From contig NC_045141.1 in assembly GCF_008831285.2 (NCBI RefSeq), forward strand, positions 16,416,106 to 16,480,105: a stretch of 64,000 bases of DNA, given 5' to 3'. The position numbers and the translations under genes were made by a program. The notes beneath the pieces were generated by a model. That model saw only the letters and a list, made by a program, of their open reading frames with translations. It ran no database searches and was not told the origin of the DNA. Below are positions 23,597-62,247 of this stretch, piece by piece. The number at the start of each line of letters is the position of its first letter. Position 1 is the stretch's first letter. The stretch comes from Nymphaea colorata (lineage: Eukaryota > Streptophyta > Magnoliopsida > Nymphaeales > Nymphaeaceae).

Positions 23597-23605
23597 GGGG
23601 GAGAT

Positions 23606-29110: not shown

Positions 29111-29187
29111 GCCGACCCCTGATTTCCTTCCTCTCACAAACCCATACAAGTTTACCCTCTTCTCCCTCCCTCTTGGGCGCTATAAAT
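29111..29187 (+). promoter_or_regulatory. A1 promoter: GCCGAC box and TATA box
   Basis: GCCGAC at 29111-29116 within GGCCGACCCCTG, and TATAAAT at 29181-29187, 70 bp apart. The ATG is 138 bp after the TATA. GCCGAC fits the DRE/CRT core RCCGAC bound by DREB/CBF-type AP2 factors. Use as a binding site is inferred. Confidence 0.6.
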
Positions 29188-29324
29188 TGCACCACTCGCT
29201 CCCCTTCCATCTTCACGGTCATGTGCATTCCTCTGTCTTTGGTTTTGGTTTCCATCAGATCTCCTTTCTCTCCTTCTTCCTGTCAAATCTTTCCTCCAGT
29301 TCTCTAAATTCTAAGACTACAATA

Positions 29325-30005
29325 ATGGCTGGCGAGTCTAATGTGCAGGCTTCATCTCCATTGGAGTTGACAGGCCTAGGACCTTTGGACCAGAAGCTTT
29401 CTATGGCAAAGCGCTGCGGCCATGGTAATGCTTCTCTCATTTATCCATCCTTCTTCCTATGATTTGGTTTCGTTTTCCTGGTTTAAAAGAACTAATGTGC
29501 TTTTTGGTAGTCTGGATCTGAGGGTTATATATGTTGTTTGTGTGCAAATGGGACTAATCTAATATGGTATTTGGTGATGACAGAGGGCGTGGTTGCCGGA
29601 GCAAGAGCCGCTGTGGTTGCAACTGTTGCTAGCGCAGTCCCCACTGTAATTACCTCTTTCTTTCTATCATCTCACTTTTTCTTCTGTATTTGTAATACGA
29701 AGCTTACTGACGACGGCGTTACATGAAATGGCAGTTGGCAAGCGTGAGAATGATACCATGGGCAAGGCGCAACCTCAACCCCACCGCTCAGGCCCTCATC
29801 GTCTCCTTAGGTACGAAAGATGTGTCCATTCCTCACAGACCACAGGCTCTGTATCATGATAGTTAATCATGGGTGTTAGTTGCTGGTTCTTGACTGTGTT
29901 TGGTTTGGTTTGATTGCAGTGGCAGGCTCGGCGTACTTCATAGTTGCAGACAAGACGGTGCTGGCCACAGCAAGGAAGAACTCTTTCCAGAACCTCCATC
30001 CCTGA
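29325..30005 (+). CDS. ENOD93: Early nodulin 93-like protein, copy A1
   Basis: Four exons: 29325-29424, 29584-29645, 29735-29810 and 29920-30005, all introns GT-AG, giving 107 residues, the family's usual size. Family hallmarks are LDQKLSMAKRCGHEG (21-35), a first hydrophobic helix about 36-54 ending SAVPT, LASVRMIPWARRNLNPTA (55-72), and a second hydrophobic stretch about 73-89 followed by [14 protein letters not shown]. The protein has no signal peptide and is a small two-helix membrane protein. In other plants ENOD93 proteins were found in nodules and nitrogen-responsive tissue and, in Arabidopsis, with mitochondrial cytochrome c oxidase. The role here is inferred from that. The start is fixed by the shared MAGES/MAGD opening of all seven copies; an upstream in-frame ATG exists but lies in the 5' UTR. 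Subtype A. Confidence 0.92.
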
Positions 30006-32299
30006 ATCATCAGGCCATTCATGCACATACAATGGAAATGTTTTATGTCTCTACGTATCTTTTGCTTCAGGCTTTTTCTACTGGAGTTGTTCTCAACCCG
30101 TATGAGCAATGTATAACAGCTCTCCTCCATATGTATAAATACGAATGATCTTTCTTCCCAACAGTTTGGTTGTTCGACTCTTTTTGAATTGAATCCAGAG
30201 AGAGAGTAGCCGCGCTGAGCCGAGCCAAGGTTGAGCCAACGAAGGCAGTATGGCGTTGGTAGAGTGATGATTCCCCTGCATTATTTTGGTTCTCCAAGAA
30301 AACAGAGGACCCCCTGATTTGTCCTCATCTTTTAACATGCGCGGGCCCACCACCCGTTGTTTTCTCCTCATCGTAACTGTGGACCCCACAACGCAATCCT
30401 CCAAAATTGGTGGGCCCTTCCAGGTACAACCCCCTGCTTTGCGGCCTCAAGAAGTAAAAATGGGAAATTTTATCTACGTATAATCTTTTACCATTAATTC
30501 AACGTGGCCCCTCATACTTTTCGTGTATTTCCGAGCAGGTGCTTGGGTTTTTGACAGTCAAATACTGAAGCTAGGCAATCATTGAAAACGAAAAGAATGC
30601 GCAAAAAAGGAAATTTTAGGAAATATCATGTCCAAACGGATAAGGAGAGAGAGAGAGGGTCACGATTTACAAATTCACAATATATATTTATAAGAGAAAC
30701 ACAGTCCACACTGTTAGATCATTTCTAATGTCCCGTTATTTGATTCCCATGCCAAATTATCAACTGATATAAGATTTAATTAGTTAATGCATACGACTTC
30801 CATCGGATTCATATCGTATAGGCTGATTTATTTTTAGATACGATCTAACTTTATATCTGATGTGATTTTAAAAAGCGATTTGTCATGATTTAAGAAAAGT
30901 GAGTTGAGGGAAAACGAATATTAAGTTAGTCATTTTCTTACTTAAATAATGCTTTTTAATCGTCAACAACGAATCATTTTTTTTTTCAAAAATTAACTCA
31001 AGTAAAGCATGTTTTATTAAATTAGTATTTATAAAAAAAAAAGTGAACATGAAATGCCGTTTAAAACTTTAAAAAACCCTTTTTTTTAAAAAAAACATGT
31101 TTTTTCGCATTTTTTTATTTTTTAATACCAAACAGGTTTTTTTGTAATTTTTTATTTTTTATTTGTTGCAAATCTACTTTGTATTATTATTTTCTCACTT
31201 ATTTGATTTTTCTCTATTTTTAGTTTTAAATTTTTTAAAAAAATACTTTTTTTTTCACAATCTCCATATTATACTAAAAAAAAACCTTGAATTTGTCTTA
31301 AAATTCGGAGAAGTTATTTGTGACTATGTAGAAATATCATATTTTGTTTTAACATGAATATAAGAAACCCAATTTTTATCTCATGTCCAAATGCGCAGCA
31401 GTTTCACCGAAACGGATTTATTGAGATCATTAATACGAACCAAAGCTAAATGGAATCTGAGTTGATAAGAATCGATCTCATGTGCAGGTGCTGTTGTTTA
31501 AAGGCTTATTCTCGGCAAGCAAACCACAGAAATCACCATCACAAAGAAGATTAAAATATTGAGATTTTAGTCAATTTAATACTAGATAATCTTGTTTACG
31601 TGCAAGGATTGTGTTGGTTCTAACTGATCCCTTAGGACATACTATTAACCCTCGATTTGAAAAATTTTTCCTCCTATCGCTTTCATTTCTACACCTTCCT
31701 ATCAACTCATGAGCAGAAAAATAGTAAAAAGAGGGCCTGCCACCAATCCACCAGCCAAGAGAATAATGGATCGACCAATAATACTTGGGGCTTAAAAGCT
31801 GCGTGTATAGGAAAACCATGGCCTCCCACATCTGGATAGCAGGAGGGCGCAGCTTTGTATCACCCATTATTGCGCTTCATGGCACAAGGGCTTTGTTTCT
31901 TCCATGATCACTGTGTGTTTTCTCTTTCTTTTTCTCTTTCTGTTCTTACCCTGCATTATCGGTTTCAATATATATATTGAACCACAAAAACCAAATTCAT
32001 TAAAATTAATTATTAAACTTTTTTTTTTTTTTGTAATTTAACTTTCATAGATACGACCTTAAGCTTGTTAGTCATTTTTCTTACTTTAATAATAATTTTT
32101 AATAATCGACGAATAAATGGTTTTTAAAAAGTTAAAATTTTCATAATACAAAATTCTTTTTTTGTTTAACAAAGGATTTGAAGTAAATTACTATTTATAT
32201 AAAATTAGTATTTATAAACACATGAGGAGGTTCACATTTTGTTTAAAACATTTTTTAAGATAAATTTAAGAGGTTTGGTTTTTCTTTGTTACTCAATCG

Positions 32300-32330
<31 letters not shown>

Positions 32331-33045
32331 GTGTGTGTGCACTCAATAAGTGCATGATTAAATCCGACATTTGAAAATTAAATCTATAAAAATAAGATGC
32401 ATTGATACAAGTACAAACTGAAGAACTAAAATTAATTTTTATAATTTTAAGGCACAGCATTATTTAAAATCCTATTTGTTTCCGGTTATAAAAGATGATG
32501 CAAATTAATCGCAAAAATGAGCAAGGGAATTAATGCTATGTTTTCGAATAAGCTGTCGTACTAAATGGATATTTTTTGTCTATCAATGATGACGGCAAAG
32601 TAGCAAAACGATGGGTCCCTTACCCCTTCTCGCTTCTCAACTTGTCCGGATTTTCCACTAAAACCGAAAGCTTCTGTCTCCAAAGGAAATTATATGACAT
32701 CGACGTTAGTTCATCCGTTCATGCATCCGATCGCTCCAAAGGCTTCTAGTCCTCTCTCTCCCACTTCTTTATTAAGGCCCTGTCCTTTTGCCATGGAACA
32801 GAGAGTTTTCACCGGAGATGGTAAAGCTCCAGGCGACTTTTCTAGTTTTCACGCCGGTAACGATTAAGGAAGTGGCCAGTAATTTTCCCTTCCTGAATTT
32901 TGGTGTGTATAATTCACGTTTTCAACCTTTTACTGTGACTTCTGCAGTAGTAAAAAATCTGAAAACTGTTCGCACAAGTCGGAATGCTACAAAATGGAAT
33001 CTTAGATAAGTTTTAGACTGCCGGCAGGGAGTGAGCGAAACCACC
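30006..33045. other. A1-B1 spacer
   Basis: No gene recognised. Parts match the A3-B2 spacer (46.9-48.8 kb): 30,200-30,240 with about 47,075-47,120, 31,560-31,860 with about 47,540-47,840, and 32,550-32,640 with about 48,380-48,450. This shows that gene and spacer were duplicated together. Confidence 0.6.
31015..31320 (+). repeat. AT-rich dispersed repeat, inverted relative to 28141-28445
   Basis: Contains TTTTTTAATACCAAACAGG, TTTGTTGCAAATC and TTTTTAGTTTT in the order seen in the reverse complement of 28141-28445. The pair flanks gene A1 in opposite orientation. Confidence 0.5.
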
Positions 33046-33112
33046 GGCCGAACCCCGAAATTCACAAACCGGCGGGAACTCATCCACTTCTCTTTTCTTT
33101 GGCACCATAAAT
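33046..33112 (+). promoter_or_regulatory. B1 promoter: altered GCCGAA box and weak TATA
   Basis: The position of the shared GGCCGACCCC box reads GGCCGAACCCC here, so the GCCGAC core is lost. The TATA position reads CCATAAAT (about 33,105) instead of TATAAAT. Promoter change and promoter position are seen directly. Reduced activity is inferred. Confidence 0.55.
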
Positions 33113-33230
33113 CTCTCCATCCACTGCTGCCCTTCAGTACTCCCACATCAGAACCTCACTGCTTTCTTCTGTTTGACTTAACTCTTCGTCGTTAAATCCC
33201 TCCTGCTTTCTCGATTTGAAGCGGCAGAAA

Positions 33231-36200
33231 ATGGCTGGTGATAAGACGAACGTGCAGGCTTCATCTCCACTGGAGGTGAACGGTCTCGGACCCCTTGACC
33301 AGAAGCTTGCTATGGCAAAGCGATATGGCCATGGTAGTACTTAGTTAGAAACTATCTCCGCTTGCGAGTTCTCTTTTGCTGATCAAGAAGACTAATTATT
33401 GTTGGAAAATGTAATGCGAGCCCTAACTCAGCTACAAACTCAAATTTATGCGGAGAAAATCCAGCAGAGTCTCGACGTCCAAACTGATGCTCAATAATAA
33501 CTTGGCAAAGTATACTTAAACAAACAAACTATTTATTCATCAAACTGGATATTACAAAAGAAGACTTAAGAAAACTCACCTCGGCGCACGCAGTGAGCTA
33601 ATACACCCAACGCCCTTGAAACTTCAACACTTGAGTTCACGAAGTGAACACACCAGCACTCACCAGCTCACAAAGTGAGCACACACTAAACCTCAACTCA
33701 ACTCACAATGCTCAATCCACCTCACAATTTTTCACACATACCCCTCAACCATCATCCCCTATTTATAGGAGAGGAGGTCGGTGGATGAAGCTTCCACCGA
33801 TTTCCACATTGTTTCTTTTTTAATTATTTTTCTTTCTTTTTAATCAGCACCGACATTATAACCACCGACTTAAAGGAGAGGCTCAAAGCCTCATGAGTCT
33901 TCTCGACTCATCTCAAGAGAGTCGGTGGGAGAGTCGGTGATGACTCTACAATCTCCCCCTCATTACCGACTCTCTACTTATGACTCCTAACATTCTTCGA
34001 AACTTGGTGAACGTTTGCACTGGCAGGCTTTTGGTAAAGATGTCAGCAACTTGATCTTCTGAAGCGATTGGCTGCAATTGAATTTCTCCTCTGAGTACCT
34101 TTTCTCTGATAAAATGATGTTCTACTTCTATGTGTTTTGTTCGAGCATGGAAGACAGGATTTTCTGCAAGTCTGACTGCACTTTGATTATCGCAATAGAG
34201 TCTCACTGTATAATCCACGTCTTGTTTAATGTCTTTCAGCAGTCGCATCAACCACACACATTCTTGTGCTGCTTGAGATGCTGCTCTATATTCAGCTTCT
34301 GTTGTAGACAGTGAAACTGTCGGTTGTCTCTTGCTGCACCATGAAATTGCACCACTTCCAAGACTGAATGTATATCCAGTGGTCGATCTTCGAGTTGATA
34401 AGTCTCCAGCATAATCCGCATCACAATGACCAACAACTTGACAAGTTGGTCCCTTCTCATAAAGTATACCAAAGTCAAGAGTTCCTTTGATATACCTTAA
34501 TATTCTTTTTAGTGCTTCTAAATGTGGCTTCCTTGGAGTTTGCATAAACCTGCTCACAACACCAACTGCATAGGCAATGTCTGGTCTTGTTAATGTTAAG
34601 TAAATTAGGCTTCCAACCAGTTGCCGATACATAGTAACGTCTTCTAGCTTGTCTCCTTCGTCAGTTCTAAGCTTTGCATTTATCTCAATTGGTGTTGAGA
34701 TAGGTTTACATCCGAGCATACCATACTTACGTAGTAAGTCATGAGCATACTTCTTTTGACTTAAAAATAGTCCTTGAGATTCATAATCAATTTCTAATCC
34801 AAGGAAGTGTCGCAACTCTCCCAGCTCTTTCATTTCAAATCTCACCGTGAGATGTTCACGAATGAGATTAATTTCTTCATTGTCATCTCCAGTGATAATT
34901 AAATCATCAACATAAATTAACAAGATAGTAAGTTTCGTACCTCTTGTCTTGATGAAGAGACTTGAATCTGCTGAAGAGACTTGAAATCCACTAAACACCA
35001 AAAATTCAGCTATTTTTCCGTACCATGCTCTTGGTGCTTGTTTTAGTCCATAGAGTGCTTTTCTTAACTTGCAGACTTAGTCTGGCTTGTTTGGAGATTT
35101 GAATCCTTCAGATTGCTCCATATAGATTTCATGGTCGAGATCTCCATATAAGAATGCATTTTTCACATCCATTTGCCATAACTTCCAGGATTTACTTGCA
35201 GCAATGGCTATCAGAACACTTACGGATGTGATTTTCGCAACAGGACTAAAAGTTTCTTCAAAATCAATATTATACTGCTGAGAAAATCCTCTCGCGACTA
35301 GTCGAGCCTTATATCTATCAACTGAGCCATCTGTCTTTCTTTTTATTTTGTAAACCCATTTACAAGTAATGGGCTTTACTCCTGCAGGCTTTGGTACGAG
35401 CTCCCAGGTTTCGTTATGCTCCAATGCCTTTATTTCATCTTTCATTGCTGATTGCCACTTTTCAACATCTTTTGCTTCTTCAAAAGAAGCTGGCTCGATC
35501 TCCTCCATGATGGCACAGTCTGCATCTACATACTTGGGATTTGGTTTTGGTATTCTTGTTGATCTTCTTAGTGTCATGGGTGCTTCTTCTGGCTCTTCAA
35601 ATTGTGATGGTCTTTCTTTTTCTGTACTTCTTTGTTGGACTGGACTGACTCCAGTTCTCCATGGATCTATACGTTCTTCTCGTCTTGGACTATGTTCAGG
35701 CATCTGGCTTCTCTAGTTGTCTTACTTCTATGTCTTCAGACTGAGGCTCTCCTTGATTCATCTCAAACTGTATTTTGTTTTGAACGTCTCTTTCAAGAAC
35801 TGGAGAGTCTGGAAGCGTCTTCTTCTCTTCTGACCACCACGATGATGCTTCATCGAAGATGACGTCGCGAGAAACATAAACTTGTCCTGTGCTAGGATTA
35901 GCACATCTCCATCCTTTCCGATATGGGTCATATCCGACAAAGACACACCTCTGTGCCTTTTTGTCGAACTTAGTCCTGTGCTGCTCAGATATAAAAACAT
36001 AACATACACAACCAAATACTTTAAAATAACTCACAGATGGCTTCTTTTTATGGAGCATTTCATATGGAGACTTAAAATTAAATCTCGGCTTTGGTAATCG
36101 ATTGATTACGTGTACAGCGGTGCTGACACACTCGGCCCAAAATCTTGGTGGCATGTTCTTTGCATGCATCATGCTTCGACATGTTTCTGCTATGTGACGA

Positions 36201-39200
36201 TTTTTCCGTTCTGCCACTCCATTTTGCTGTGGCGTATAGGCACATGTGAATTGTCTTTGAATACCATGTTGCCTCGTGTATGTCATAAACATATTGGATG
36301 TATATTCGCCACCATTATCGGTTCGTAGACACCGAATTCTATGCCCAAGTTCTTTTTTCACCATCTGGTGAAACTCCTTAAATTTTTCAAGTGCTTCAGA
36401 CTTTTCTTTCATAAAATAGACCCAAGTATATCTCGAAAAATCATCAATAAAAGTGATGAAGTACCACTTACCTCCAACTGATGGGTCTGCTACTTTGCCG
36501 AATACGTCTGAATGCACAAGCTCGAATGGCGCTTTAGCTCTATATTTTGATTCTTTGTATGGCTTCCTGTGCGCCTTTCCATACTGACATCCTGGGCATA
36601 CTTTATCTATTCGTACCTCAAGCTTGGGCAGACCAATCAACTGCCCCTTATTAGACATCTCCCGAAGTTTGTTGTATCCAACATGAGCGAGTCTCTCATG
36701 CCAGATATCTGCTGTGTCATGCTTCTTTGTTTTGTCAATATATGTTGTTTCTGCGGACAAGACATATATTGACTCAACTTTCCTTCCTTCAAACATGGGA
36801 GTTCCTTGAACATCTTCATCTTTATAAACTTTTACATCATTTGGGCCGAACAAAACATAGTGCCCCAAAGCTGTTAGTTGTGGCACAGACAACAAATTTT
36901 TTGTCATTCCTGGAACATGGTAAACGTTCCGTAAAATCCGGTCTTTACCGAAGTTGGCTACAACCTCTGCTTCTCCAATATGTGCCACCGGGAGCTTTGT
37001 GTTGTTAGCAGTAACAACAACTCGATTTCCATCATATTCTTTCATACTTACAAACTTGCTCTCATCACCAGTCATATGATTTGAGCATCCAGAATCAATT
37101 ATCCAATCAGTTTGATAATTGATCTTCTCTTCTTTTTCTTTTACGGGTTTTGTATGAGCGGAATTGCATCTTTCTTGTGTAATATCTTCTTTAACCTCCA
37201 TTGAGTACAGAAATGAATTTTTCTGTACAACTTCATTAGCTCCCCCATTTTGTTTACTTGTCATGACTGCATTTCCTTCATTGATTCTGACTCTGCAGTC
37301 ACGAGCAATATGACCCAATTTCCCACATCTAAAACATTTCACTTTTGGTCTCCACTGCTGTGTAGTTTCTCTTGTTTTCTTTTCTATATTTTTCTCTTTC
37401 TTTTCAGCAATATTCCTACTTGGAGACCGAATGACTGGCTTAGCTGGCCATCGTGATCTCTGACCCTTACTAAACAAAGCTTCCTCATTATTTTCCTTGA
37501 GAGAAAGTCCAGCCATCTGCTTTGCTAATGTTTCTTGATTGATCAAGAGATTTTCTAACTCCAACAAAGTTGGTTGAACTGGCCAGCCTTGAACACCAAT
37601 TATAAAACTACCAAATTCTGGACGAAGTCCACGAATAAGGATTCTCCGCATACGGGCCTCACTAATTTTAGACTCAGGGTCGATTTGAGATATTTCTCTA
37701 CAAAGATTTTTAACCTTCATAAAATATTCTGCTATCGACATGCTTCCCTGAGTTAATGTAGCTAAATCATTTTCTAATAATTGTAGGCGGGCATCATTAG
37801 CTCGAGAAAATAGGGTTGCAAAAGCATCCCATGCTTCTTTAGGAGTCGTAGCATCTCGTATATGCTCTAATAAATCTTTCTCAATTGATACTTTAATTGC
37901 AAATAGAGCTTTCCCTGCTTTGATCATCCATTTCTTTTTAGCTTCTTCATCGACAGGAATATTACTGTCAGATCCCAATACTATCTCCCATAATTCCTGT
38001 CCTAGAAAATACGACTCCATACATGATTTCCAATAGCCATAATTGCTATTGTTAAGTTTCTCAATATTGTTTAATGCAACTGCTAATGCCGCCATAATTT
38101 CAGGATATAACTATTCAATAAATCGGCCCTCGAACAGAACCTTGCTCTGATACCAATTGTTGGAAAATGTAATGCGGGCCCTAACTCAGCTACAAACTCA
38201 AATTTATGCGGAGAAAATCCAGCAGAGTCTCGACGTCCAAACTGATGCTCAATAATAACTTGGCAAAGTATACTTAAACAAACAAACTATTTATTCATCA
38301 AACTGGATATTACAAAAGAAGACTTAAGAAAACTCACCTCGGCGCACGCAGTGAGCTAATACACCCAACGCCCTTGAAACTTCAACACTTGAGTTCACGA
38401 AGTGAACACACCAGCACTCACCAGCTCACAAAGTGAGCACACACTAAACCTCAACTCAACTCACAATGCTCAATCCACCTCACAATTTTTCACACATACC
38501 CCTCAACCATCATCCCCTATTTATAGGAGAGGAGGTCGGTGGATGAAGCTTCCACCGATTTCCACATTGTTTCTTTTTTAATTATTTTTCTTTCTTTTTA
38601 ATCAGCACCGACATTATAACCACCGACTTAAAGGAGAGGCTCAAAGCCTCATGAGTCTTCTCGACTCATCTCAAGAGAGTCGGTGGGAGAGTCGGTGATG
38701 ACTCTACAATTATGACATAATCTTTGTTTGGTGATTGAAAATTAATGTGTGCAGAGGGAGTGGTGGCAGGAGCACGAGCAGCTGTGGTGGCTACCATTGC
38801 TAGTGCAATTCCTACTGTACACACACACACGCTTTCTCTCTCTCTCTTTTCCATTATTCAGGTTACCAACAGCTGATTATATCTGTTGCGTGCAATGGCA
38901 GTTGGCAAGTGTGAGGATGTCACCATGGGCAAAGCGCAACCTCAACCCCACAGCTCAGGCTCTCATTGTTTCCTTAGGTAATCATTCAAAGAAGTTGGAA
39001 CGAAGTAACTGATAAATTGAAAATACATAGGTTTTCAATTATTGCATCACTACATATACCATTATCTTTCTCTTCAGTCTTGCATCTTTTCTGATCATGG
39101 AAGGAACACTTTTTTTGCAGTGGCTGGCTCAGCGTACTTCATAGTGGCAGACAAGACGGTCTTGGCCACTGCAAGGAAGAACTCTTTCGAGCACTTCCAT

Positions 39201-39206
39201 CCTTGA
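33231..39206 (+). CDS. ENOD93: Early nodulin 93-like protein, copy B1, with a copia element in intron 1
   Basis: Exons are 33231-33333, 38755-38816, 38902-38977 and 39121-39206, GT-AG throughout and 108 residues. The opening is [18 protein letters not shown], the middle [18 protein letters not shown], and the tail KNSFEHFHP. Subtype B is recognised by MAGD and SPWAKR, against MAGE and PWARR in subtype A. The coding sequence is intact. Intron 1 is 5421 bp because a 5.3-kb copia element sits in antisense orientation; without it the intron would be about 107 bp, like its paralogs. The splice sites are undamaged, so correct splicing is possible, but early polyadenylation or silencing is plausible. 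The promoter box is also altered in this copy. Confidence 0.88.
33400..33950 (-). repeat. 3' LTR (left end) of the B1-intron copia element
   Basis: 551 bp, TGTTGG to TCTACA on the plus strand. Matches 38158-38708 except for one base near its start. Confidence 0.95.
33951..38095 (-). mobile_element. gag-pol coding region of the B1-intron copia element
   Basis: Gag, protease, integrase, reverse transcriptase and RNase H follow each other in copia order on the minus strand. This is a virus-like element copy with about two breaks. Function is not expected from this copy as it stands. Confidence 0.9.
38158..38708 (-). repeat. 5' LTR (right end) of the B1-intron copia element
   Basis: 551 bp. Next to it, at 38140-38155, lies the primer-binding site. 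Confidence 0.95.
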
Positions 39207-39399
39207 TTAGAGCAACGGCCGGCCATTCATACACATATATGATGGAAATGTCTATGTGTCTACGTATCTTTTGATTCAGGCTTTTGTACTGGAGACGTAT
39301 GAGGTTGCACCCGTAGAATTAAATCTGTATATATAATATCATTCTGCTTAATTTCCTGCACTGCGGGAGTTGTTTTGTCAATTGATCAAGGTGTACATC

Positions 39400-39431
<32 letters not shown>

Positions 39432-41645: not shown

Positions 41646-41732
41646 GCCGACCCCTGATTTCTTTTCGGTATTTCCCAGACACGCACAGAATCTCAGCCCA
41701 CCGATCTTTCTTTCCTTCTGGTCACTATATAT
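41646..41732 (+). promoter_or_regulatory. A2 promoter: GCCGAC box and TATA box
   Basis: GCCGAC at 41646-41651 and TATATAT at 41726-41732, 80 bp apart. The ATG is at 41884. Confidence 0.6.
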
Positions 41733-41883
41733 TGTTCCAACTATTGCTCTTCCATTCACCAACCCATTCACCAACCCGGCATCACAACCACCTTTCCCTC
41801 CTTCCAGCCTTCTGCTTCCAATCCCTCTTTGTTCTTTATCTCTAAACCTCTTTTCCTCTCCTTTCAATTCAGGTCTTATTCCA

Positions 41884-46012: not shown

Positions 46013-46096
46013 GCCGACCCCTGTTTTCTCTTTTCTATTACTTGATGCTGCAAAGGAACCTCCGCCCTCTCCCCTTTCCGTCTGGCCATTATATAT
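46013..46096 (+). promoter_or_regulatory. A3 promoter: GCCGAC box and TATA box
   Basis: GCCGAC at 46013-46018 in GGGGGCCGACCCCTG, and TATATAT at 46090-46096. Spacing is 77 bp. Confidence 0.6.
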
Positions 46097-46208
46097 TGGA
46101 CCAACCACTGCCCTTCCCCTCATCACCTCGCAGCATTCTTCTTCCGATCCATTTCCTTCTTCATTAAACCTTTCTTTTCTTCCCTCGATTCAGATCTTAT
46201 CAATCACT

Positions 46209-46880: not shown

Positions 46881-48836
46881 TGAGAGCAACGGCCGGCCAT
46901 TCATACAGAAATGTTTATGTATCGTCGTGTCTTTTGATTCCCTCTTTTCTACTGGCGTTGTTTATCGACCTGTACGAGCAATGTATAACCGCTTTCCCCA
47001 TATGTATAAATATTAAGATTGATGTTTCTTCACCAATATTCTTGGTTGGTGCATCTGCTCCATGCGAATGAGAGAGAGAAGGAGAGAGCCGAACCGAGCG
47101 GCCTTGGAGCCAAGCCAAGCCTAAGTTTTAGGAAGGCTCATAATTGCCTGCAATATTTTAGTTCTCCCAGTAAACAGAGGGTCCCCTTCTTTGACATCCA
47201 TCATTCTTAATTAGCACCTCTGTTTCCTCCTCCTGGTTGACAAGAGGACAACACCACCCCCAGAAACGCCGGACCGGCTAAATACAACGCACCCCCCACC
47301 ATTGCCGTCGCCAAAGGACGAAATCAAGGAAATTCCACTTACAGACAATGAACCAACATCAATTTCAGTGGGCGTCTCAAATTTTCTGAATTTTCCATGA
47401 AATGTACGCTACTGTTTGAAATCAGAAAACGACGCACCTCCTGCAAAGTGTTCGTGATATCTGGAAATTCCACTTTACCATTAAAAGTTTGATGACGACG
47501 GATAACTATGTACGAGATTGTAAACATCTTAAAATATTGGGATATTAGTCAATTATGGATGATGCTATATATAACTAGGATTGTAGTGGATTCCAACTCC
47601 CTTATGCCAATAGGAAACATTTTCTCCCCAGGCTTTTGGCCCATTAACTCTTAATTAGAAAAATTATTCCTTCCATCACTGTCATTCTTCACCTACCCAA
47701 CAACTATCAGCAACAAGTTAGGAAAAAATCGAACGGTGCCACCTTTCCACCAGCCAAAGGAATAATGATGGAGTAGAGGAGCGTAAGAGCTGGATATTTA
47801 AGAAAACCATGAGCTCCCACTTGTGGGTAGCACGAGGGCAGTTTTCCAATGCCAGTATTTCAGCCTTTATTTCGGGCAATCCTTATAATTTGATTCTTCC
47901 ACTCATGGACGTCATCATCTTTATATATATATATGTGTTCGTATTCTGCATTAAAAAGAGTCACTCATCCATCTACTTCAGACCTTTCAATACAATATGA
48001 TAGACTGTTAAGAAAAAAATGATAGATATTTTTGCCTTGTATAATTAGTTAACACTTTTTTTTTTCTCTTACCTGTTTCAAATGAACTGCCCTGATAAAA
48101 TGGCCGGATGAATTTAAAAATTGAAAGTCATCATTCATATATGAAAAATATACTGTATTTTAGCAACGTGTACAGTGATTACAGGTCATCCGATTAATTT
48201 AATTTAACATCCATAAGATATGAAAACATCTATAAGGCATTAATTTTGAAAAAGCATCTGAAGCAGGGCACATGCACTTCGTCTCCCAATCAACCGTCGT
48301 ACTAAACATCCACAAGGTATTAATTTTGTAAAATTATTTTAAGCTGGGCACATGCACTCATGTTCCAAAAAACAGTCGTACTACTTTAAGTCGATAATTT
48401 TTCCATCAATAGTAACGGGCAAAACAGCAAAACATGCAATCTGTGCCTACCTCAAATTCTGATGATTTTCCACTAAATTAAACTGAAAGCTTCCGTTGCT
48501 AAAGGAAATTCTGTGACACCGACGTTCCTTGTAACGATGCAAAGGAGCCACATGGGAACATCTCCATGCATTCCGTCGCTCCAAAGGTTTCTGGTCCTAG
48601 TCTCCTTTTAGCATGGAGGGAGAGTTTTCACCTGTGATGGTGAGCTGCTGTCTGTTCTTCTCGTTTTTACACCAGTAATAACGAAGCAGGGATCAGTAAT
48701 TATCTTTCTGAATGTTCATGTGTATAATTAACGTTCTCAGATTATTACTACGACTTCTGCACAGGTAAAATATATTACAGTTAAACTTTAGTATGGCCGC
48801 CAGAAAGTGAGCGAAACCACTGGCTGTGGCCGGGGG
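46881..48836. other. A3-B2 spacer
   Basis: No gene recognised. It is homologous in parts to the A1-B1 spacer (30.0-33.0 kb), consistent with duplication of an A-B pair. Two short related segments occur near 48,215 and 48,310 (CATAAGA / CACAAGG...TATTAATTTTG). Confidence 0.6.
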
Positions 48837-48907
48837 GCCGACCCCTAGAATTCCTTTCATAAACCAGCGGAATCTCACTCTCTTCTCTTGCCTTTGGTAT
48901 TATAAAT
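48837..48907 (+). promoter_or_regulatory. B2 promoter: GCCGAC box and TATA box
   Basis: GCCGAC at 48837-48842 and TATAAAT at 48901-48907, 64 bp apart. The surrounding about 170 bp is almost the same as in B3. Confidence 0.6.
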
Positions 48908-49013
48908 TGCACCATCCACTGCTCTTCAGTACTCAGAACCTGCATTGATCTTCTGTTTGCGACTGAATTCTTCTTCCTTAAATCTCTCCTGATCTCTGTT
49001 CTTCAAGCTCACA

Positions 49014-49821
49014 ATGGCTGGTGATCGGTCCAACGTTCAGGCTTCATCTCCACTGGAGATGAAGGGTCTTGGACCTCTTGATCAGAAGATAGTTATGGCA
49101 AAGCGCTGCGGCCATGGTAGGACTTCATTACCAAATGTCTCTGTGAAATTATTCCCCTTTCTCTTTTTGGGGTTTTTTCTCTTTTGCTCATGAAGTCTAA
49201 CTAATAATTTCTTATGCAGAAGGAGTAGTGGCAGGAACAAGAGCAGCTGTGCTTGCTACCATTGCTAGTGCAGTTCCTACTGTAAGATCTCTTTCTTTCT
49301 TTATATCTCTCTCATCTTTCCTTACATTATTAATGCGAACAACATCTGAAATATGTATGCTTTTTTGGTGCGTTCAATGTCAGTTGGCAAGTGTGAGGAT
49401 GTCACCATGGGCAAAGCGCAACCTCAACCCCACAGCTCAGGCCCTCATCGTTTCATTAGGTAATCTTCAAAGAAATTGACAGTAAATGATAACCGAAAAT
49501 AAACATGGATCCCTCCATCTTTTCCCTAGGTCATGTTCTTTTGGGATCCTGTTTGGCGCTAATGCGCCAAAAATCTTGCCTTACGGATTCCTATGCTGCC
49601 ATCTAGGGCGGACAAGCCTTTGAAAGAGAAAAAAAGCTCTTAACTATGAGTCTTCAGTTCTCACTTGAATCATCATCTTCATCACAGTCTCTTCTTTCTA
49701 CCTTCTTTAATTTTGGAAGTACATTTTCATTGCAGTGGCTGGGTCGGCGTACTTCATCGTTGCAGACAAGACGGTCTTGGCCACAGCAAGGAAGAACTCC
49801 TTCCAACACTGGCAACCATAG
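49014..49821 (+). CDS. ENOD93: Early nodulin 93-like protein, copy B2
   Basis: Exons are 49014-49116, 49220-49281, 49384-49459 and 49736-49821, GT-AG, 108 residues. Subtype [19 protein letters not shown], then LDQKIVMAKRCGH; the first helix reads EGVVAGTRAAVLATIAS, where Thr replaces the Ala of other copies except B3; [10 protein letters not shown] follows. The tail is KNSFQHWQP. Intron 3 is 276 bp, longer than in A1-A3. B2 and B3 are the most similar pair in the array, from the promoter through the 3' flank. Confidence 0.92.
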
Positions 49822-52800
49822 AACTAGATCATGTACTGGGAAATAAATCTGTATATCTAATATCTTTCTGCTTTCCTACTTGTCCTGTTTTGTTCATTTA
49901 TCACGTATGTATATATATATAATCACAGTTTGATCTTGATAAGCATTAGTGGACGCTGCACAACCACAAGGTTTTTTATCGCCTAATTAATGAAACCAAA
50001 ATGGAACAGCCTATTGTTACTGATAAGAAGAAGTGGTCTAATTAAGTTGGCTAATAATGTCCTTAAAGTGAACCGAGTAGCAAGGTCATGTGGGAGTGAG
50101 ATTTTATTCTTCCAAATTAAGAAGCAGAGGAATTCTGACCCACGGGTTTTTCCATACTTTCAATAACCCATTGTTTTGTTATCAAAAGTTGAGCAGCTGT
50201 GTCCAAATGCAATGCACCAATGCATACGCTATACATGCGGCGCAGGAAGAACATCCGCCCCCTGGTTGCTGGCCATGCCATTTAGCGTTACTAAAAATTT
50301 TCATCCCTAAGAGAACATGTTTATGTTAACTTTTATGTAAGATTCTAAATGTACTTTATATTTAAGATTGTATATATGGGTTTGCTAAAGTGATTAGTTA
50401 TCTTGGTTGCCAGTATTTCTTGGGTTGTAATTAAAACTGTTAAAAAGTGGGTTGAGATTCATCGGACCAGTTACTCGAGCTCGGTGTGAGTTTGGTCGTT
50501 ACAATCAATCTTTCTCCCTCGTAATAAACATCTTTAAACTTTGAATTTAAATAACGAAAAAATTGCTTAATAGATCGTTAACTCAAGCTACCTAGATTGT
50601 AAAAAAGAAAAAATTGCTTAATAGATCGTTGATCAAGCTGCCTGAAGACCTATGACCAAAATCTTTCCCCTGACAACAACTAATAAAAACAATTATTCAC
50701 CCAAATTCATACAGAACTTGATCATCCACACGCTAATTTGTGAATGTGAATGTGCACAAGTTTGTTAGAAAGAATGTAACAGCGTGAGGAAACCTAGATT
50801 AGTAGTTTGGCTTCTTACTTTTGTGGGGGTGTAACTCATGCCCCGAAATTCATAGCTTGAAAAAGATTTTAATTTTTCAATAATTGAATGGAATAGTTGG
50901 GCCCGAAATGAAATTAAAAAAAAAAATTGCCATGATAAGCAATAATGAAAAGATATTGCTATCAGAACCCTAAATAATGCAGCGCATAAGACATCCGTTG
51001 TTAGGTATCGGCCTGTGTTGTCCATGACTAAAATCATCATATTTTATTTTTATACTTTCTTCATGAATGAGTTGCACTGGTCGGCAAAATCGGGCTGTGA
51101 CGCCGGATCTGCAAAGGTGCGGCGTTTATTCCATTCCCCATAAAAGGAGGTGGCCGAATCGGGCTTCATATCGTTGAACGATGCGTATCAGCCGATACGT
51201 AACTATGCAGTGATGAACGACGTCCACTTTCGTCGTGAGCATCAAACTTGATGTTGTCTTGGATGTGTATTTAATTGTTTGTGAAAGAAACAAACATTTG
51301 CAGAAAAAGACAGATGGGCCGAATATCAGAGGCTCATAACGCATGGCATATTTTTTTAGTAAAGTTTGAAAAGACAAAATTTTAAAATAATTTATACATA
51401 TATGCCTTGAGATTGCTAAGTTTAAAGGTACTAAAAGGTGATGCTGAAATATGTATATAACGTATTCTTTTATCAGAGTTTCATGGGGCCCAGGCACCCT
51501 GGAGGATAAACGTCTAACTTGGTTTTCTAAAACATGCTAATCATGACATAAAAAAAAAGAATTAAAAAGTTTACATATAAATTTTATAAATTTTAATTGT
51601 CTTATATAAAAATTTTGAAAATTAATATTTCAAAAATTTGGAAACTTTAATTTGCTCCACCTCATGAAAAATTTCTAATTCTGCTCCTGATGCTAACTAA
51701 TCATTCATAATCACCAAGCGTTCTTTTCTATGGACTTGCAGGATGTGAATTGGTTTGAATAAAATTATAGAAAAGAACGATGTGACCAGGACACCTAGAT
51801 TGATAATGTGCATAGATTCTTACTTTGCTGGGCTGTAATTAATGCTCTATATCAAGTTTTTTCTTTTTTTAACTTATCTAATTCAACCTGTGTCTTTATA
51901 GTAGTTCACATTTGCAAAACCACTTGCGGAGCTTGGATTTTATTTTTTGTCAAATATATCAAGCAAAGCCATTTTATTATATTTTTGCTTTATGTTTGTA
52001 TTTGCTAATTAACCTTTATTTTTGCATTGGCTTTCAATTCTTTCTTGGATGCGCATAATTTTATTTTAATTTTAGAAAGAAGCAACGATATGATACCTTA
52101 ATTAAGGTTGAGCATCACGCACGTACCGGGCCACAGCTCGTGACTGCCCCCAAAATGTATACAGCCACATAATTAATTGAAGTATATTTTTAATGTCAAC
52201 TCAGGTTGTAAATTTTTATAGTATACTTTTATTATAATCTATTGCCTTCCCACACAATTTAAAGTAATATGATCTTGGTTATGATTTGCCAACAATTTGA
52301 ACTATAGAAGAGGTCATGAATCTAAAAACACTTGTTCAACTTGTATTTATCTCTCGCTATGTCAACCATCTAATTCTCCATGTGCCTCGGACATTTAGAC
52401 ATTCATGCTCAAAACATGTTTGCAAATGGTTGGCTAGTTAAAACCTGTCATGTCCCTAATAAAAACTTTCATGAGAATTAAAAAAAAAATGGAAAATAAC
52501 TTAAGATGAAATTTTACGCTTTAAAACAATTAGAACCAAATTGGAGTGACTCCGATCCAAGTTACCAATCCATCGAGTCAATTGATTCCTGGCCGAGTGA
52601 ACCAGTTTTGGTGCTGACTCCGTTGAATTCCAACTTGTGGCCCAACAAGAGGACAATCCCTAGCCGATTGGTAAGTTCTAACGCTGAACACAAGTCTAGT
52701 AGAGTCGACTCATGGATCATTGGGCTCGAGTTTGGCTCAAGCTCGGGTTGAGCAGCTCGAGCTAGACTTGATCAGCCAAATAGAAGCTCAAGTTCCACTC

Positions 52801-52996
52801 GTTTAAAATCGAAAATTGAAAGAATGAGAGACCGACACCGACAACCAGGAACGAAACTTTTGAAAAAATTTATCCTACTTTTACTGAACTCGGCACAAGA
52901 TATTACAGTTCTCACAACTTACGACCCAAAAACTCTTATACAAACTTTAGAATGGCCAGCAGAAAGTGAGCAAAACCGCTGGCTGTGGCCGGGGGG
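49822..52996. other. B2-B3 spacer
   Basis: No gene recognised. Segments near 49,930-50,050, 51,075-51,260 and 51,890-52,030 have relatives downstream of B3 or B1. Near 52,720-52,800 is a short CTCGAG/CTCAAG-rich patch like that inside the MITE at 55644-56110. Confidence 0.6.
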
Positions 52997-53067
52997 GCCG
53001 ACCCCCAGAATTCCTTTCACAAACCGGCGGAATCTCACCCTCTTCTCTTGCTTTTGGTATTATAAAT
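52997..53067 (+). promoter_or_regulatory. B3 promoter: GCCGAC box and TATA box
   Basis: GCCGAC at 52997-53002 preceded by seven Gs, and TATAAAT at 53061-53067, 64 bp apart as in B2. Confidence 0.6.
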
Positions 53068-53173
53068 TGCACCATCCACTGCTCTTCAGTACTCAGAACC
53101 TGCATTGATCGTCTGTTTGCGACTCAATTCTTCTTCCTCAAATCTCTCCTGATCTCTGTTCTTGAAGCTCACA

Positions 53174-54072
53174 ATGGCTGGCGATCTGTCCAACGTTCAG
53201 GCTTCATCTCCACTGGAGATGAATGGTCTTGGACCTCTTGACCAGAAGCTAGTTATGGCAAAGCGCTATGGCCATGGTAGGACTTCATTACCAATGTCTC
53301 TGTGAAATTATTCCCCGTTTTCTTTTTGGGGGTTTTCTCCTTTGCTCATGAAGTCTAGACTAATAATTTCTTCATGGGAAATGAAATGAATGTGGGTGCA
53401 GAGGGAGTGGTGGCAGGAACAAGAGCAGCTGTGCTTGCTACCATTGCCAGTGCAGTTCCTACTGTAATCTCAGTTTCTCTCTCTCATCTTTCCTGACATT
53501 ATTAACGTGACCAACATCTGAAATATGCATGCTTTTTGGTGCGTTCAATGGCAGTTGGCAAGTGTGAGGATGTCACCATGGGCAAAGCGCAACCTCAACC
53601 CCACTGCTCAAGCCCTCATTGTTTCATTAGGTAACATTCAAAGAAATTGACACTAAATGATAACTGACAATAAACCTGGATCCCTCCAGCTTCCAATAGA
53701 ATGTATTTTGTGGTCAAACAAGCACAGGGTAACAGCAGATCCTGTTTGGTGGTGAAACAAGCCTTAGGTCCTGATCTTTTGTGGTCCTGTTTGCGCGTTA
53801 ATGTTCAGAAATTTTACCTTGACGGATCCCTACTGTTACCACTAGTCGGGAAAAGCCTTTGCAGGCATACATGCTCTTATTTATGAGGCTTTCATTTCCC
53901 ACAAAACCAAATATAAATCATCATCTTCATCCCTGTCTCTTCATTCTTTCTTATTTTCTGATCATGGACGTCCGGTTTAATTGCAGTGGCTGGCTCGGCC
54001 TACTTCATTGCGGCAGACAAGACGGTCTTGGCCACAGCAAGGAAGAACTCCTTCCGGCCCTTGCAACCATAG
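53174..54072 (+). CDS. ENOD93: Early nodulin 93-like protein, copy B3
   Basis: Exons are 53174-53276, 53402-53463, 53555-53630 and 53987-54072, GT-AG, 108 residues. Subtype [57 protein letters not shown]. The second helix reads AYFIAADKTVL, with Ala for the Val of all other copies. The tail is KNSFRPLQP. It lies 4160 bp from B2, the apparent duplication period. Intron 3 (356 bp) has gained sequence containing a repeated CCTGTTTG motif, also present in intron 3 of B2 and A4. Confidence 0.92.
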
Positions 54073-54350
54073 AACTAGCTCATGTACTGGTAACTAAATC
54101 TGTATACATAATATCGTTTTCATTTCCTACTTGTCTTGGTTTGTTCATTTACCACAGATTTTTTCACCTCTCTCTCTCTCTCTCTCTCTCTCTTACCACA
54201 GATTCGGTTAAAGCGCCGCCGCCTGATGACTGTGCCGTCTTTCCTCTTTTCTCTTATTTTTCTGTGCATTGTATTGTATATTTGTTCCTCCTACTTGTGT
54301 TTTTTGTGTAATTTTGTTCTTTGCAGATTGTTTTTGTATTTAGGAGACCT

Positions 54351-54391
54351 CTTGTCCCCAAATTTTGTTATATATTCCCATTTTATTGGCT
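54351..54391 (+). repeat. Direct repeat left of the 5S sequence
   Basis: The roughly 41-bp sequence starting CTTGTCCCCAAATTTTG is repeated at 54541 with one visible mismatch (TATTGG versus TATCGG). The interval between copies is 190 bp. It contains TATATA about 35 bp before the 5S start. Confidence 0.85.
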
Positions 54392-54407
54392 TTCTCTCTC
54401 TCTCTCT

Positions 54408-54526
54408 GGGTGCGATCATACCAGCACTAACGCACCGGATCCCATCAGAACTCCGAAGTTAAGCGTGCTTGGGCGAGTGTAGTACTGGGATGGGTGACCT
54501 CCTGAAAAGTCCTCGTGTTGCATCCC
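54408..54526 (+). rRNA. 5S ribosomal RNA gene, isolated copy, probably decayed
   Basis: Full-length plant 5S rRNA starting GGGTGCGATCATACCAGC and ending GTTGCATCC, about 119 bases. The internal RNA polymerase III promoter is recognisable: box A AGTTAAGCGTGCTTGGGCG, intermediate element GTAGTACTGGG (the usual sequence is GTAGTACTAGG), and box C GGATGGGTGACC. It differs from the standard plant sequence at several places, such as GAGTGTAG for GAGAGTAG and CTGAAAAG for CTGGGAAG. No T-run terminator follows directly. It is a single copy outside any 5S array, so it is probably not a source of ribosomal 5S RNA. Confidence 0.9.
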
Positions 54527-54540
54527 CAGAGAGGGGACAT

Positions 54541-54581
54541 CTTGTCCCCAAATTTTGTTATATATTCCCATTTTATCGGCT
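54541..54581 (+). repeat. Direct repeat right of the 5S sequence
   Basis: Second copy of the CTTGTCCCCAAATTTTG repeat. Flanking copies of a spacer are what one or more units of a 5S rDNA array would leave. The repeat is far too long for an ordinary target-site duplication. Confidence 0.85.
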
Positions 54582-54599
54582 CTCTTTCTTTCTCTCTCT

Positions 54600-54603
<4 letters not shown>

Positions 54604-54662
<59 letters not shown>
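54604..54662. repeat. (TA)n microsatellite
   Basis: About 29 TA units directly after the 5S-bearing insertion. The B2 flank has a short ATATATATA tract at the matching place. Confidence 0.9.
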
Positions 54663-54663
<1 letters not shown>

Positions 54664-54664
<1 letters not shown>

Positions 54665-54935
54665 ATTCATTTTGATAAGCATTGTTGGACACCGCACAAC
54701 CAGATACTCTTTTGTCACCTGAAACCATCTCCTATTACTGATAAGATAAAAAAAAAAATGGTCTAACGACAAAAGCATATTAGCCGATCTGGGTTCAGAT
54801 TTTTTGGAAGATCAAATCATAGATCGATTTTGATGAGCATGAGTGAACCCTGCACAACCTCAAACTTTTTTGTCGCCTAATTAGTGAAACTAAAATGGAA
54901 CGACAATTTCTTACTACTGATAAAAAACGAAGTGA
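54664..54935. repeat. Duplicated B-type 3' flank segment
   Basis: TTTTGATAAGCATTG...CGCACAACC at 54,668 recurs as TTTTGATGAGCATGAG...TGCACAACC at 54,827. Related single copies lie after B1 (39,490) and B2 (49,933). So an extra local duplication occurred downstream of B3. Confidence 0.65.
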
Positions 54936-57592
54936 TCTAATTTTGTTGGCCAATAAGGACCGTAAAGAGTAAGTATCGAGCCTAGCCAAGCCAAGTGGGC
55001 TTGGTTCCCAGGGTCATGTTGGACTGACATTGTATTCGACTCAACGTTTCTCGATTTGCTAACGTGCTTTATGCGTTTCGGCAGAGAAGTCTTGAACACG
55101 ATTTATATGTTCAATTGCGTCATATTGAATAATGTGGTTTTTTTAAGCACGTAAGAGTATTTGTAGTGTTATTTTTTTAGACTGGACTGCAAATTGTGAG
55201 TGCATGGTTCTACTCAGGTTCCAAAATAGCTTTGGATCAATAAGATAACGCAAGAGAGAAGAGCTTCCACCACCTTGGATATCTCCCCTCCTGCCCCTAC
55301 TCCTATCAGTACTTAAACAAAAAAATATAAAATTAAATGACTCCTGCAATGGATGCCCTCTTACATTATTCTCTACAATTATTGTCAGACTTCTGAAAAT
55401 GCAAAAAAAAAAGTGCCATGGTAGGCAGTGTAGTTGTGATGCAAAGATATTGCGAGTTGTTCATTACTAAAATAATATTTTATTTATATATTTTTTCATG
55501 AATACTTTTCTCTGGTCGGCAAAATCAAGCTGTAACGCCGGATCTGTAGAGCTGCGGCCTTTATTTAGTTTCGAATAAAAAAAGAATGGCGCCGGATCGG
55601 GCTCCGTGTCGTTGAACGAATACGAGCACAAGCACGGCTTAACTAGGGGTGAACAGCGAAACCTCGAGCTTGCTGCTTGAGCTCCAGAATAGTTGCTGGA
55701 CACAAACAACTTGAGCTCCACTCTATAGTTCCGTGTTAAGTTGAAGGTGGATTAGATTAAGACTTGACAAATTCGTTTATAGAATTGATATTTATCGTTA
55801 CGCGTTAAGCTTGAACTTGACTCTATTAAAACTCTACAAACTCGTTTGAATAAAATTGATATTCAACTTTATATATTGAGTTCGAGCTCAACTCGATTAA
55901 GGCTCAACAAACTCGTAAACTCGTTTAAATATATGGACCTGATTAAGGTTCGACAAACTCGATTAAGGCTCGAGCTCAACTCAACAATTACGTGTTAAGC
56001 TAGAAATCAACTCGATTATTTAATGAACTCGAGCTCGAGTTGTTATGCAAATGACTCACCTCAAACTCTTTCATGAGCTAGCTTTAACCAGTCCAGCTTG
56101 TTCACCCCTAATTAACACTTAACAATGCCGATTGTAGCGACAATGATAAATGACGAACACTTTCGTCGCAAGCATCAAACTTGATGACGCCTTGGACATG
56201 TATTTAATTATATTTGTAATAAAAAATACAAAAAAAGGCATTGTGGCCCGAAGGTCATTCAGGAAGGGAGACTCGTAATGCATTGAGAGCCAATGAAGGG
56301 TGAAACAAAAATCTTAACTGGGTTGGTACAACGGTATTAGGTAGAGACCTGTTTCAAACTGACATGGAAGTTGCCAGCACCAAGGTCGGTCCGACCTTTT
56401 GCTTTTTTTTCAGCCGTGAGTCAAACCCAGCTCTTCCAAAGATGAAACTGAAATACTATATAATTTATTCTTTTGTGAAAAGACACAGGAGCGTATGAAA
56501 ATTTTGATACCCACAGAAATGCTGCAATGTCCAAATTCGGTGAACTGCACGCTGCACATCCTCATGTACGCATGCATTTCAGAGCGTGCTCATATTTACA
56601 CACAGAAATGAGATTTCTGCGCTTTTTTTTATACGTGGCCTAAAAAGATAAAAAAAAAAAAAAAAATCACCTGCACACCAATTTTTAATGTTAATTTAAA
56701 ATACACTCGTATTTCTGATAATGTATCTCATAGGTTATCATAGGCGGTTTAAAACCAAATTTTATCTACATTGCTAGGTGAAAAGTGTACAAAAAATTGC
56801 TAAAAACACTACGAACTGCTAATTACATTATAAACAATCATTAATGTTTGCAGCTACTTTTTAACGAGAAATATTTATGTTTAACTATGCACAGCACCTG
56901 ACCTCTAGATCCACTTATTTGCTAACATGGATGATTGAAATATTTTCAACCAGCAAAGTTATCTTAAAATATTGTTGTTGTATTTGAATTGTGAAGTGCC
57001 CTAACATATATATTTTTTGTTACAAGCATTGTAGAATAATATAAACACGTATCTCTTATTACATGACTGATTAGATAAGATTATCAACAATTATGCAGTA
57101 ATTATATAGTGCACAAGAGCAGCACTGAGCAGAAACCATGGGTGGCTTCCACCGTTTCCTTTCCTACTTTTTCTAACTTTCCTGAATCCCGAGAGCTGCC
57201 GTCGTTTCAAAGGGAGGAAAGGTTAGGCTGGCATCAATATCATCGTACGAATCACCAAAGAAAATGGGGCCACGTGCATCTAGCCATCCTTCCAACACTA
57301 TCCCTTTTTTTTTTTCTTCTTTCTCAAAAGCTTCCTCTGATTTAACTTTCGCCTGTATTATTGGACTTGTGATCTCGAATTCATAAACCACGTTTCTTTC
57401 ATTTATTGCTTTCTAGTTAAGCATCTCTCCCTCTCTCTCTCTCTTTAAATCTGAGGCGCATAATGCATTTTATGAAGATCTTAGTGATCATGACTTCACC
57501 AAAGCTGTGGGACGAATGGTAATTGTATTGTACTAAGAGAAGAAGAAGAAAAAACCAGAGGCTGATGGGGGCTTTGCAGGGGGCCGACCCAT
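54936..57592. other. B3-A4 spacer
   Basis: No gene recognised. The interval 55,515-55,620 plus 56,120-56,215 matches 51,075-51,270 in the B2-B3 spacer. The interruption between is the MITE at 55644-56110. Confidence 0.6.
55644..56110. mobile_element. MITE with 12-bp terminal inverted repeats (467 bp)
   Basis: It begins TAGGGGTGAACA and ends TGTTCACCCCTA, a perfect 12-bp inverted repeat with the TAGGGGTG start typical of hAT-like MITEs. The interior is made of repeated CTCGAG, GAGCTC and ACTCGATTAAGG motifs. TTAAC lies on both sides, but a clean 8-bp target-site duplication is not visible. The related spacer near 51,190 lacks the element. Confidence 0.7.
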
Positions 57593-57664
57593 GTTTTCTC
57601 CTTTGTGTTTCTCGAAAACCAGAGAACTTCGGGCCTCTGCTGTTTCCTTTTGGGCATTATATAT
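57593..57664 (+). promoter_or_regulatory. A4 promoter: GCCGAC box and TATA box
   Basis: GCCGAC at 57593-57598 in GGGGGCCGACCCATG, and TATATAT at 57658-57664. Spacing is 65 bp. Confidence 0.6.
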
Positions 57665-57809
57665 TGTACCAACTACTGCCCTTCCCTCGACCACCCACAC
57701 ATCACAATCCTCTGTCCCTCCTTCCAACTTTCCTGCTTCCAACCCAAGTTTTCTTCTTGCTTCTTCACTAGACCTTTCTTTCTTTTTTTACTCTCAATTC
57801 ACACCTACT

Positions 57810-58688
57810 ATGGCTGGTGAGTCTAGTGTGCAGGCTTCATCTCCGCTGGAGATGAAAGGTTTCGGACCTCTTGACCAGAAACTGGCTATGGCGAAGCGCT
57901 GTGGCCATGGTAACGCTTTTCCCACTCTCATCATCTTATACATTTTCGTCCTCTGAGATGGGTTTCTTTTTTTTTTGGCTCAAGGAAACTGATATGGTCT
58001 CTCGTATTCTTGATCTGAGGGCTACATTGTGCTGCTTTCTAAAGAGGACTAATGTATACTGTATTTGGTGATGACAGAGGGAGTGGTAGCAGGAGCAAGA
58101 GCAGCTGTGGTTGCAACTGTTGCTAGTGCAGTCCCCACTGTAATTACCTTTCTCTGTCTCTCTCTCTCTGAGCTCACTTTTCCCTCTGTATTTGCAATGA
58201 GAAGCTTACTGATGATGGCGTTACATGAAATGGCAGTTGGCAAGCGTGAGAATGGTACCATGGGCAAGGCGCAACCTCAACCCCACAGCTCAGGCCCTCA
58301 TCGTCTCCTTAGGTATAAATCAATGCCCCAAACAACCCGTCTTCTCATCTCATGGACAAACAAGCAAAGAAAGAAAGAAAGGGTGCCTCCAGATCCTGTT
58401 TGGTATTAAAACAGGTCCTCTGTTCCCCGATCTTCTGTGGTCCTGTTTGGGTCCTGATCCGCCCATAACAGGCCACTAAAAAAATTAACCTGCTTCGGAG
58501 TCTGTGTCCGTTTCTCAGACCATCTCTTCACGATATCGAGATAATTTTTTTTGTTGTTTCTGTTTCCCAACTGTGGTTGGTTGGTATTTGATTTGGTTGC
58601 AGTGGCTGGCTCGGCATTCTTCATTGTCGCGGACAAGACTGTCCTGACTACAGCAAGAAGGAACTCCTTCAAGAACATGCAGCTCTAG
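57810..58688 (+). CDS. ENOD93: Early nodulin 93-like protein, copy A4
   Basis: Exons are 57810-57909, 58078-58139, 58237-58312 and 58603-58688, GT-AG, 107 residues. Subtype [63 protein letters not shown]. The tail RRNSFKNMQL differs from the others (RR instead of RK, and no His or Pro near the end). It is the last copy in the array. Intron 3 (290 bp) is longer than in A1-A3 and holds several copies of a CCTGTTTGG motif. Confidence 0.92.
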
Positions 58689-62245: not shown

Positions 62246-62247
62246 CT

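Follow-up and report, generated by a model that had tools for sequence, protein, structure and literature searches.

Sets of neighboring ENOD93 genes have been described in several plants. The S1 region of Oryza glaberrima, African rice, carries seven putative ENOD93 genes in one orientation within 267-333 kb of its contig, and the O. sativa orthologues of these genes are LOC_Os06g04930 to 05020 (PMC3053390). The rice ENOD93 family has 7 members (PMC11530774), wheat 7A has seven ENOD93 genes (TraesCS7A02G091800-093300) within 0.82 Mb (PMC9554612), the ENOD93 paralogues of soybean and pigeonpea are closely located (PMC3749373), and Arabidopsis has one ENOD93 gene, At5g25940 (PMC11530774). Here, we analyzed a stretch of 64,000 nucleotides from Nymphaea colorata (NC_045141.1, positions 16,416,106 to 16,480,105), hereafter the window. 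Its segment from 29.3 to 58.7 kb holds seven complete ENOD93 genes as well as an exon-4 relic, all of them on the + strand. The copies are of two types and are arranged as A, B, A, b (the relic), A, B, B, A. We consider it highly probable that the seven intact genes form a tandem ENOD93 array that grew by the unequal exchange of A-B blocks, was partly homogenized by conversion, and supplies the same protein.

The rice array is similar to the present one in having seven ENOD93 genes of about 0.5-0.75 kb each, in one orientation and at kilobase spacing, but it differs in extending over 66 kb and in having an F-box gene inside. Wheat 7A likewise has seven ENOD93 genes in one region, although that region spans 0.82 Mb, and the soybean and pigeonpea genes resemble the present array in being closely located paralogues. 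Arabidopsis At5g25940 belongs to the same family and, like the present genes, encodes a small protein with two hydrophobic stretches, whereas it is a single gene whose function has been tested in Arabidopsis. Given the seven-gene sets of rice and wheat, the present array is a further case of a known kind. The original prediction had held that most plants have few copies and that the array is a notable lineage-specific expansion. The single gene of Arabidopsis (PMC11530774) favors such a reading, but the seven-gene sets in African rice (PMC3053390), rice (PMC11530774), and wheat 7A (PMC9554612) speak against it, and we found the claim to be unsupported by the accounts cited and regard it as very unlikely; an expansion relative to the plant's own close relatives could still be true. 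The alternation of A and B genes and gene conversion in an ENOD93 array were not found among the titles and abstract openings listed in searches of the open-access literature on ENOD93.

All seven genes could be modeled with four exons. A1 (29325-30005) has exons at 29325-29424, 29584-29645, 29735-29810, and 29920-30005, and B1 (33231-39206) has exons at 33231-33333, 38755-38816, 38902-38977, and 39121-39206, with a copia element, described below, that enlarges intron 1. The exons of A2 (41884-42578) are at 41884-41986, 42157-42218, 42308-42383, and 42493-42578, those of A3 (46209-46880) at 46209-46308, 46448-46509, 46605-46680, and 46795-46880, and those of B2 (49014-49821) at 49014-49116, 49220-49281, 49384-49459, and 49736-49821. 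B3 (53174-54072) comprises 53174-53276, 53402-53463, 53555-53630, and 53987-54072, and A4 (57810-58688) comprises 57810-57909, 58078-58139, 58237-58312, and 58603-58688. Exon 1 is 100 or 103 bp long, and exons 2, 3, and 4 are 62, 76, and 86 bp long in every gene; all 21 introns have GT..AG ends, and each gene has a single open frame of 107 codons (A1, A3, and A4) or 108 codons (B1, A2, B2, and B3) followed by a stop. These models and the relic match confirmed the earlier count of seven intact copies and a relic on a single strand in the order given above. The original prediction had placed the array at 29111-58688; the right end is exactly the A4 stop, and the left end falls within the A1 promoter, 214 bp 5' of the A1 ATG.

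The identity of the genes is supported by the spliced proteins, all seven of which matched the whole 78-position Pfam model for ENOD93 (PF03386) at 121.7-130 bits (cutoff, 25). Their lengths (107-108 amino acids) are inside the ENOD93 range of about 90-130 amino acids (PMC11530774), and the two copies checked for hydropathy peaks, A3 and B2, each showed two hydrophobic stretches. Silent change exceeds replacement change across the array genes, with ratios of replacement to silent divergence (dN/dS) of 0.10-0.42 over the whole coding sequence in all 21 gene pairs. The array thus consists of neighboring homologues on the same strand with intact frames and dN/dS below 1, as is expected of a tandem cluster under purifying selection. 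Among the seven genes, the coding branch is longest for A2, which may be under weaker constraint. Searches beyond plants returned 22 pattern matches in viral contigs and 88 in prokaryote genome contigs, none of which was confirmed; for a plant protein, no relative was expected there. Among solved structures, a single-sequence search gave one match only, to a serine dehydratase-like protein (E = 0.81), and a profile search gave no match at E values up to 10.

The A and B copies formed two separate groups in four of five segment trees, in agreement with the clades that had been foreseen, and the fifth tree, of the 3' end, differed. The trees are unrooted and overlapping, given that the coding tree has exons in common with the others. 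Support for the split was 96/98 in the coding tree, 100/100 in the tree from promoter to intron 1, 100/100 from exon 2 to exon 3, and 100/99 from intron 3 to mid exon 4. The earliest-branching A copy depended on the tree, being A4 in the coding tree and A1 in the promoter tree. Identity between A and B copies was 38-60% in intron 1, intron 2, and the 300 bp upstream; within intron 2, the A copies were 84-92% identical to one another, B2 and B3 were 88% identical, and B1 was 61-68% identical to B2 and B3. Silent divergence was 0.53-0.76 between the groups, 0.20-0.52 within A, and 0.19-0.36 within B, and that of A4 from the other A copies (0.42-0.52) is almost the A-B distance.

With the genes removed, the nine intervening and flanking stretches gave 40 matches to one another, all on the same strand, and ten first-order shuffled sets gave none. 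Simple repeats shared by S1 and S7 make up 3 of the 40, and several matches correspond to promoters or 3' untranslated regions (UTRs) immediately beside genes. The A-to-B spacers S1 (30006-33230), S3 (42579-43978, searched as 42579-44039), and S5 (46881-49013) are homologous, with three collinear matches between S1 and S3, three between S1 and S5, and two between S3 and S5. The B-to-A spacer S2 (39207-41883) has three matches each with S4 (44344-46208), S6 (the B2-B3 spacer, 49822-53173), and S7 (54073-57809). S4 is likewise homologous to S6 and S7, and was searched as 44251-46208, so that the 3' UTR of the relic was included; both of its matches with S7 are confined to the 3' UTR and the promoter beside the genes. 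Since the A-to-B spacers match one another, as do the B-to-A spacers, the repeating unit is A-spacer-B-spacer, and the spacer homology expected from the A/B pairing was borne out for S1, S3, and S5 and for S2, S4, and S7. The first ~2.2 kb of S6 is of the B-to-A type and is followed by ~0.86 kb of unmatched sequence and then by ~230-270 bp of B promoter. This structure is compatible either with a duplication of a B gene that included part of the spacer or with an A gene having been lost from between B2 and B3; after the seven genes had been masked, the A, B, and all-gene profiles found no A relic there.

The b relic (43979-44343, + strand) consists of B-type intron 3, exon 4, and 3' UTR only, and matched the B-gene profile in that order over its whole length (E = 5e-61). 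Its exon 4 has a broken frame and is divided between two reading frames, and neither a promoter nor exons 1-3 could be located next to it. With the seven genes masked, nhmmer searches with the three profiles returned the relic, the 3' UTRs of the genes themselves, and otherwise matches with E > 0.05; tblastn searches of the 64-kb window with exon peptides gave no match below E = 0.30 beyond the genes and the relic. Because these searches found no further ENOD93 copy in the window outside 29-59 kb, the array seems to end inside the window.

We considered whether duplication by itself could explain the array, as the original prediction had proposed in a history in which A-B blocks were duplicated, one B gene was partly lost, and a single B gene was duplicated late, with no exchange among the copies. 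The separation of A from B in four of the five trees and the collinear spacers are in favor of such a history, as is the joining of B2 with B3 in four of the five trees (92/90, 100/99, 98/96, and, weakly, 69/71; the intron-3 tree is the exception). However, the mosaic identities of several copies count against it. One of these is in B1, where an A-type tract (39185-39294, + strand) that covers the end of exon 4, the stop, and the first ~88 bp of the 3' UTR is embedded in B-type sequence. The left edge of the tract is between 39163 and 39185, and B-type sequence is found again from about 39316. Sites were diagnostic where A1-A3 share one base and B2-B3 share another; of 77 such sites, 30 are A-like in B1, comprising 14 of 14 within the tract and 16 of 63 before it. 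In B1, the maximum chi-square test placed the break within exon 4, at 39162, with a value that was not reached in any of 2000 permutations. The uncorrected P values for four other copies were 0.04 (A1), 0.06 (A4), 0.22 (A2), and 0.24 (A3), and therefore B1 alone stands out. The B1 3' UTR is 87% identical to that of A1, compared to 52% for introns 1 and 2 together (P = 2e-8), and 86% identical to that of A3, compared to 53% (P = 7e-7); intron 1 of B1 was compared without the copia element, with two bases of the target-site duplication remaining. Identity of the tract to B2, B3, and A4 is 42-46%. In the tree of the exon 4 end and 3' UTR, B1 joins A1-A3 (95/96), and A4 is placed with B2, B3, and the relic on a long branch; the 250 bp of the A4 3' flank are just 33-37% identical to those of the other six genes and the relic.

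Other copies also speak against a history without exchange. The identity of B2 and B3 is 93% (393/423) over the promoter, intron 1, and intron 2 but 78% (412/531) over intron 3, the 3' UTR, and the 3' flank (P = 3e-11), with a drop near 49.5 kb, where 92-97% gives way to 62-75%, and a return to 85-92% in exon 4 and the 3' UTR. For A1 and A2, identity climbs from 50% upstream through 61% in intron 1 and 90% in intron 2 to 95% in intron 3 and is 62% after the stop. The exchange-free history is weakened by these mosaics, and we regard it as unlikely. What remains of the original proposal is the two groups and the block structure of the spacers; what it omitted is the exchange between copies and a 5.3-kb copia insertion in B1. 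Gene conversion is the simplest cause of the mosaic identities, to which uneven constraint may add, and conversion-like exchange was probably part of the history of the array. Under the reading that we favor, unequal exchange of A-B blocks would have enlarged the array, one B gene would have been lost for the most part, and the copies would have been partially homogenized by nonallelic gene conversion.

Several points weigh against this reading. In a global alignment, the B1 tract and A2 share only 60% identity (P = 0.12 against the introns), although local alignment gave 89% over the first 64 bp, and the 3' UTR of A2 is itself 48-54% identical to those of A1 and A3. The identity and chi-square tests were made once the pattern had been noticed, the trees are unrooted, and uneven constraint along the gene could be a part-cause of the identity steps. 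The activity of the array copies is likewise presumed. Lastly, a 3' tree in which the B copies are held together was not rejected by the approximately unbiased test, with a borderline P value of 0.057. This last result also favors an alternative in which the A-type 3' end of B1 is ancestral and B2, B3, and the relic lost the tract via one common deletion. B-type 3' UTR follows the tract directly in B1, such that B2, B3, and the relic could merely be without ~90 bp. However, identity to A1 and A3 is 86-87% in the tract compared to 52-53% for introns 1 and 2 of B1, and A4 is without an A-type 3' UTR (46% identity to A1). For the tract to have been retained since the split of A and B, the 3' UTR would therefore have had to evolve unusually slowly in just some of the copies, and we find this alternative improbable.

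The intron 1 insertion in B1 is a Ty1/copia long terminal repeat (LTR) retrotransposon of 5.3 kb (33400-38708) in antisense (-) orientation, bounded by a 5-bp target-site duplication, ATTAT, at 33395-33399 and 38709-38713. Its two LTRs are identical except at 1 of 555 aligned bases, and the element is therefore young. Its gag, integrase, and reverse-transcriptase domains are distributed over three open pieces with no single continuous open reading frame (ORF). We considered that the insertion might have killed B1, and rejected this since the element is confined to intron 1 and has left the splice sites, the frame, and the coding sequence of B1 intact. Another LTR-bounded Ty1/copia element is located at 18979-23910 on the + strand (LTRs 99.4% identical over 316 bp), and a diverged relative (67-68%) is found at about 16.5-17.9 kb.

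What the copies may do can be proposed from work on other plants. ENOD93, a relative of the N-terminal domain of yeast RCF2, is a small protein that typically has two hydrophobic or transmembrane stretches; it is located in the mitochondria of Arabidopsis (the location also applies to rice) and is found with a complex of complex IV size, and its loss in Arabidopsis led to lower ATP synthesis rates in isolated mitochondria and to shorter roots (PMC11530774). By analogy, each copy would encode a small membrane protein of the mitochondria that accompanies cytochrome c oxidase (complex IV) and influences how much ATP is produced in respiration, and the several copies would provide dose and an expression range of one protein from several promoters and not a new function. 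We also considered that A and B could be long-kept, functionally distinct forms of a complex IV regulator, with their alternation held because block duplication copies both together and with exchange homogenizing the common parts and sparing those specific to each class, namely the promoter, introns 1 and 2, and the residue after the RM motif. This residue is S in the B copies and I, L, or V in the A copies. We regard this reading of A and B as distinct forms as unlikely.

Some features of the promoters and the rest of the window were also observed. The sequence GGGCCGACCC, whose core resembles the dehydration-responsive element/C-repeat (DRE/CRT), occurs five times in the 64 kb (29109, 46011, 48835, 52995, and 57581) and not on the opposite strand, and all five sites are upstream of array genes (A1, A3, B2, B3, and A4). 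GCCGAC is located 64-80 bp before a TATA-like box in six of the seven promoters, and B1 has neither exactly. The B3-A4 spacer contains a 5S rRNA sequence (54408-54526; Rfam RF00001, 107 bits) that lies between 66-bp direct repeats spaced 190 bp from each other and sits in a stretch of 0.5-0.66 kb that is missing from the B2 3' flank; it could be either a stray 5S unit or a putative 5S-bearing element of the Cassandra kind. On one side of the array, O-methyltransferase-like gene pieces with Methyltransf_2 and dimerisation domains lie at 11088-13142 on the - strand, and on the other side an ORF with a PetM (cytochrome b6f subunit 7) domain lies at 61886-62272, also on the - strand. A direct repeat of ~0.85 kb (1-843 and 1803-2674) is 87% identical. 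From the split genes, the copia elements, and the PetM-like ORF, we infer that the window is plant nuclear DNA.

In summary, the array by itself leaves the knowledge of ENOD93 arrays unchanged. Links have been drawn between ENOD93 and the nitrogen use efficiency of cereals and, in Arabidopsis, between ENOD93 and complex IV (PMC11530774), and multicopy ENOD93 arrays complicate breeding and knockout work. Given that the copies of the present array seem to swap pieces, a single gene tree can mislead.

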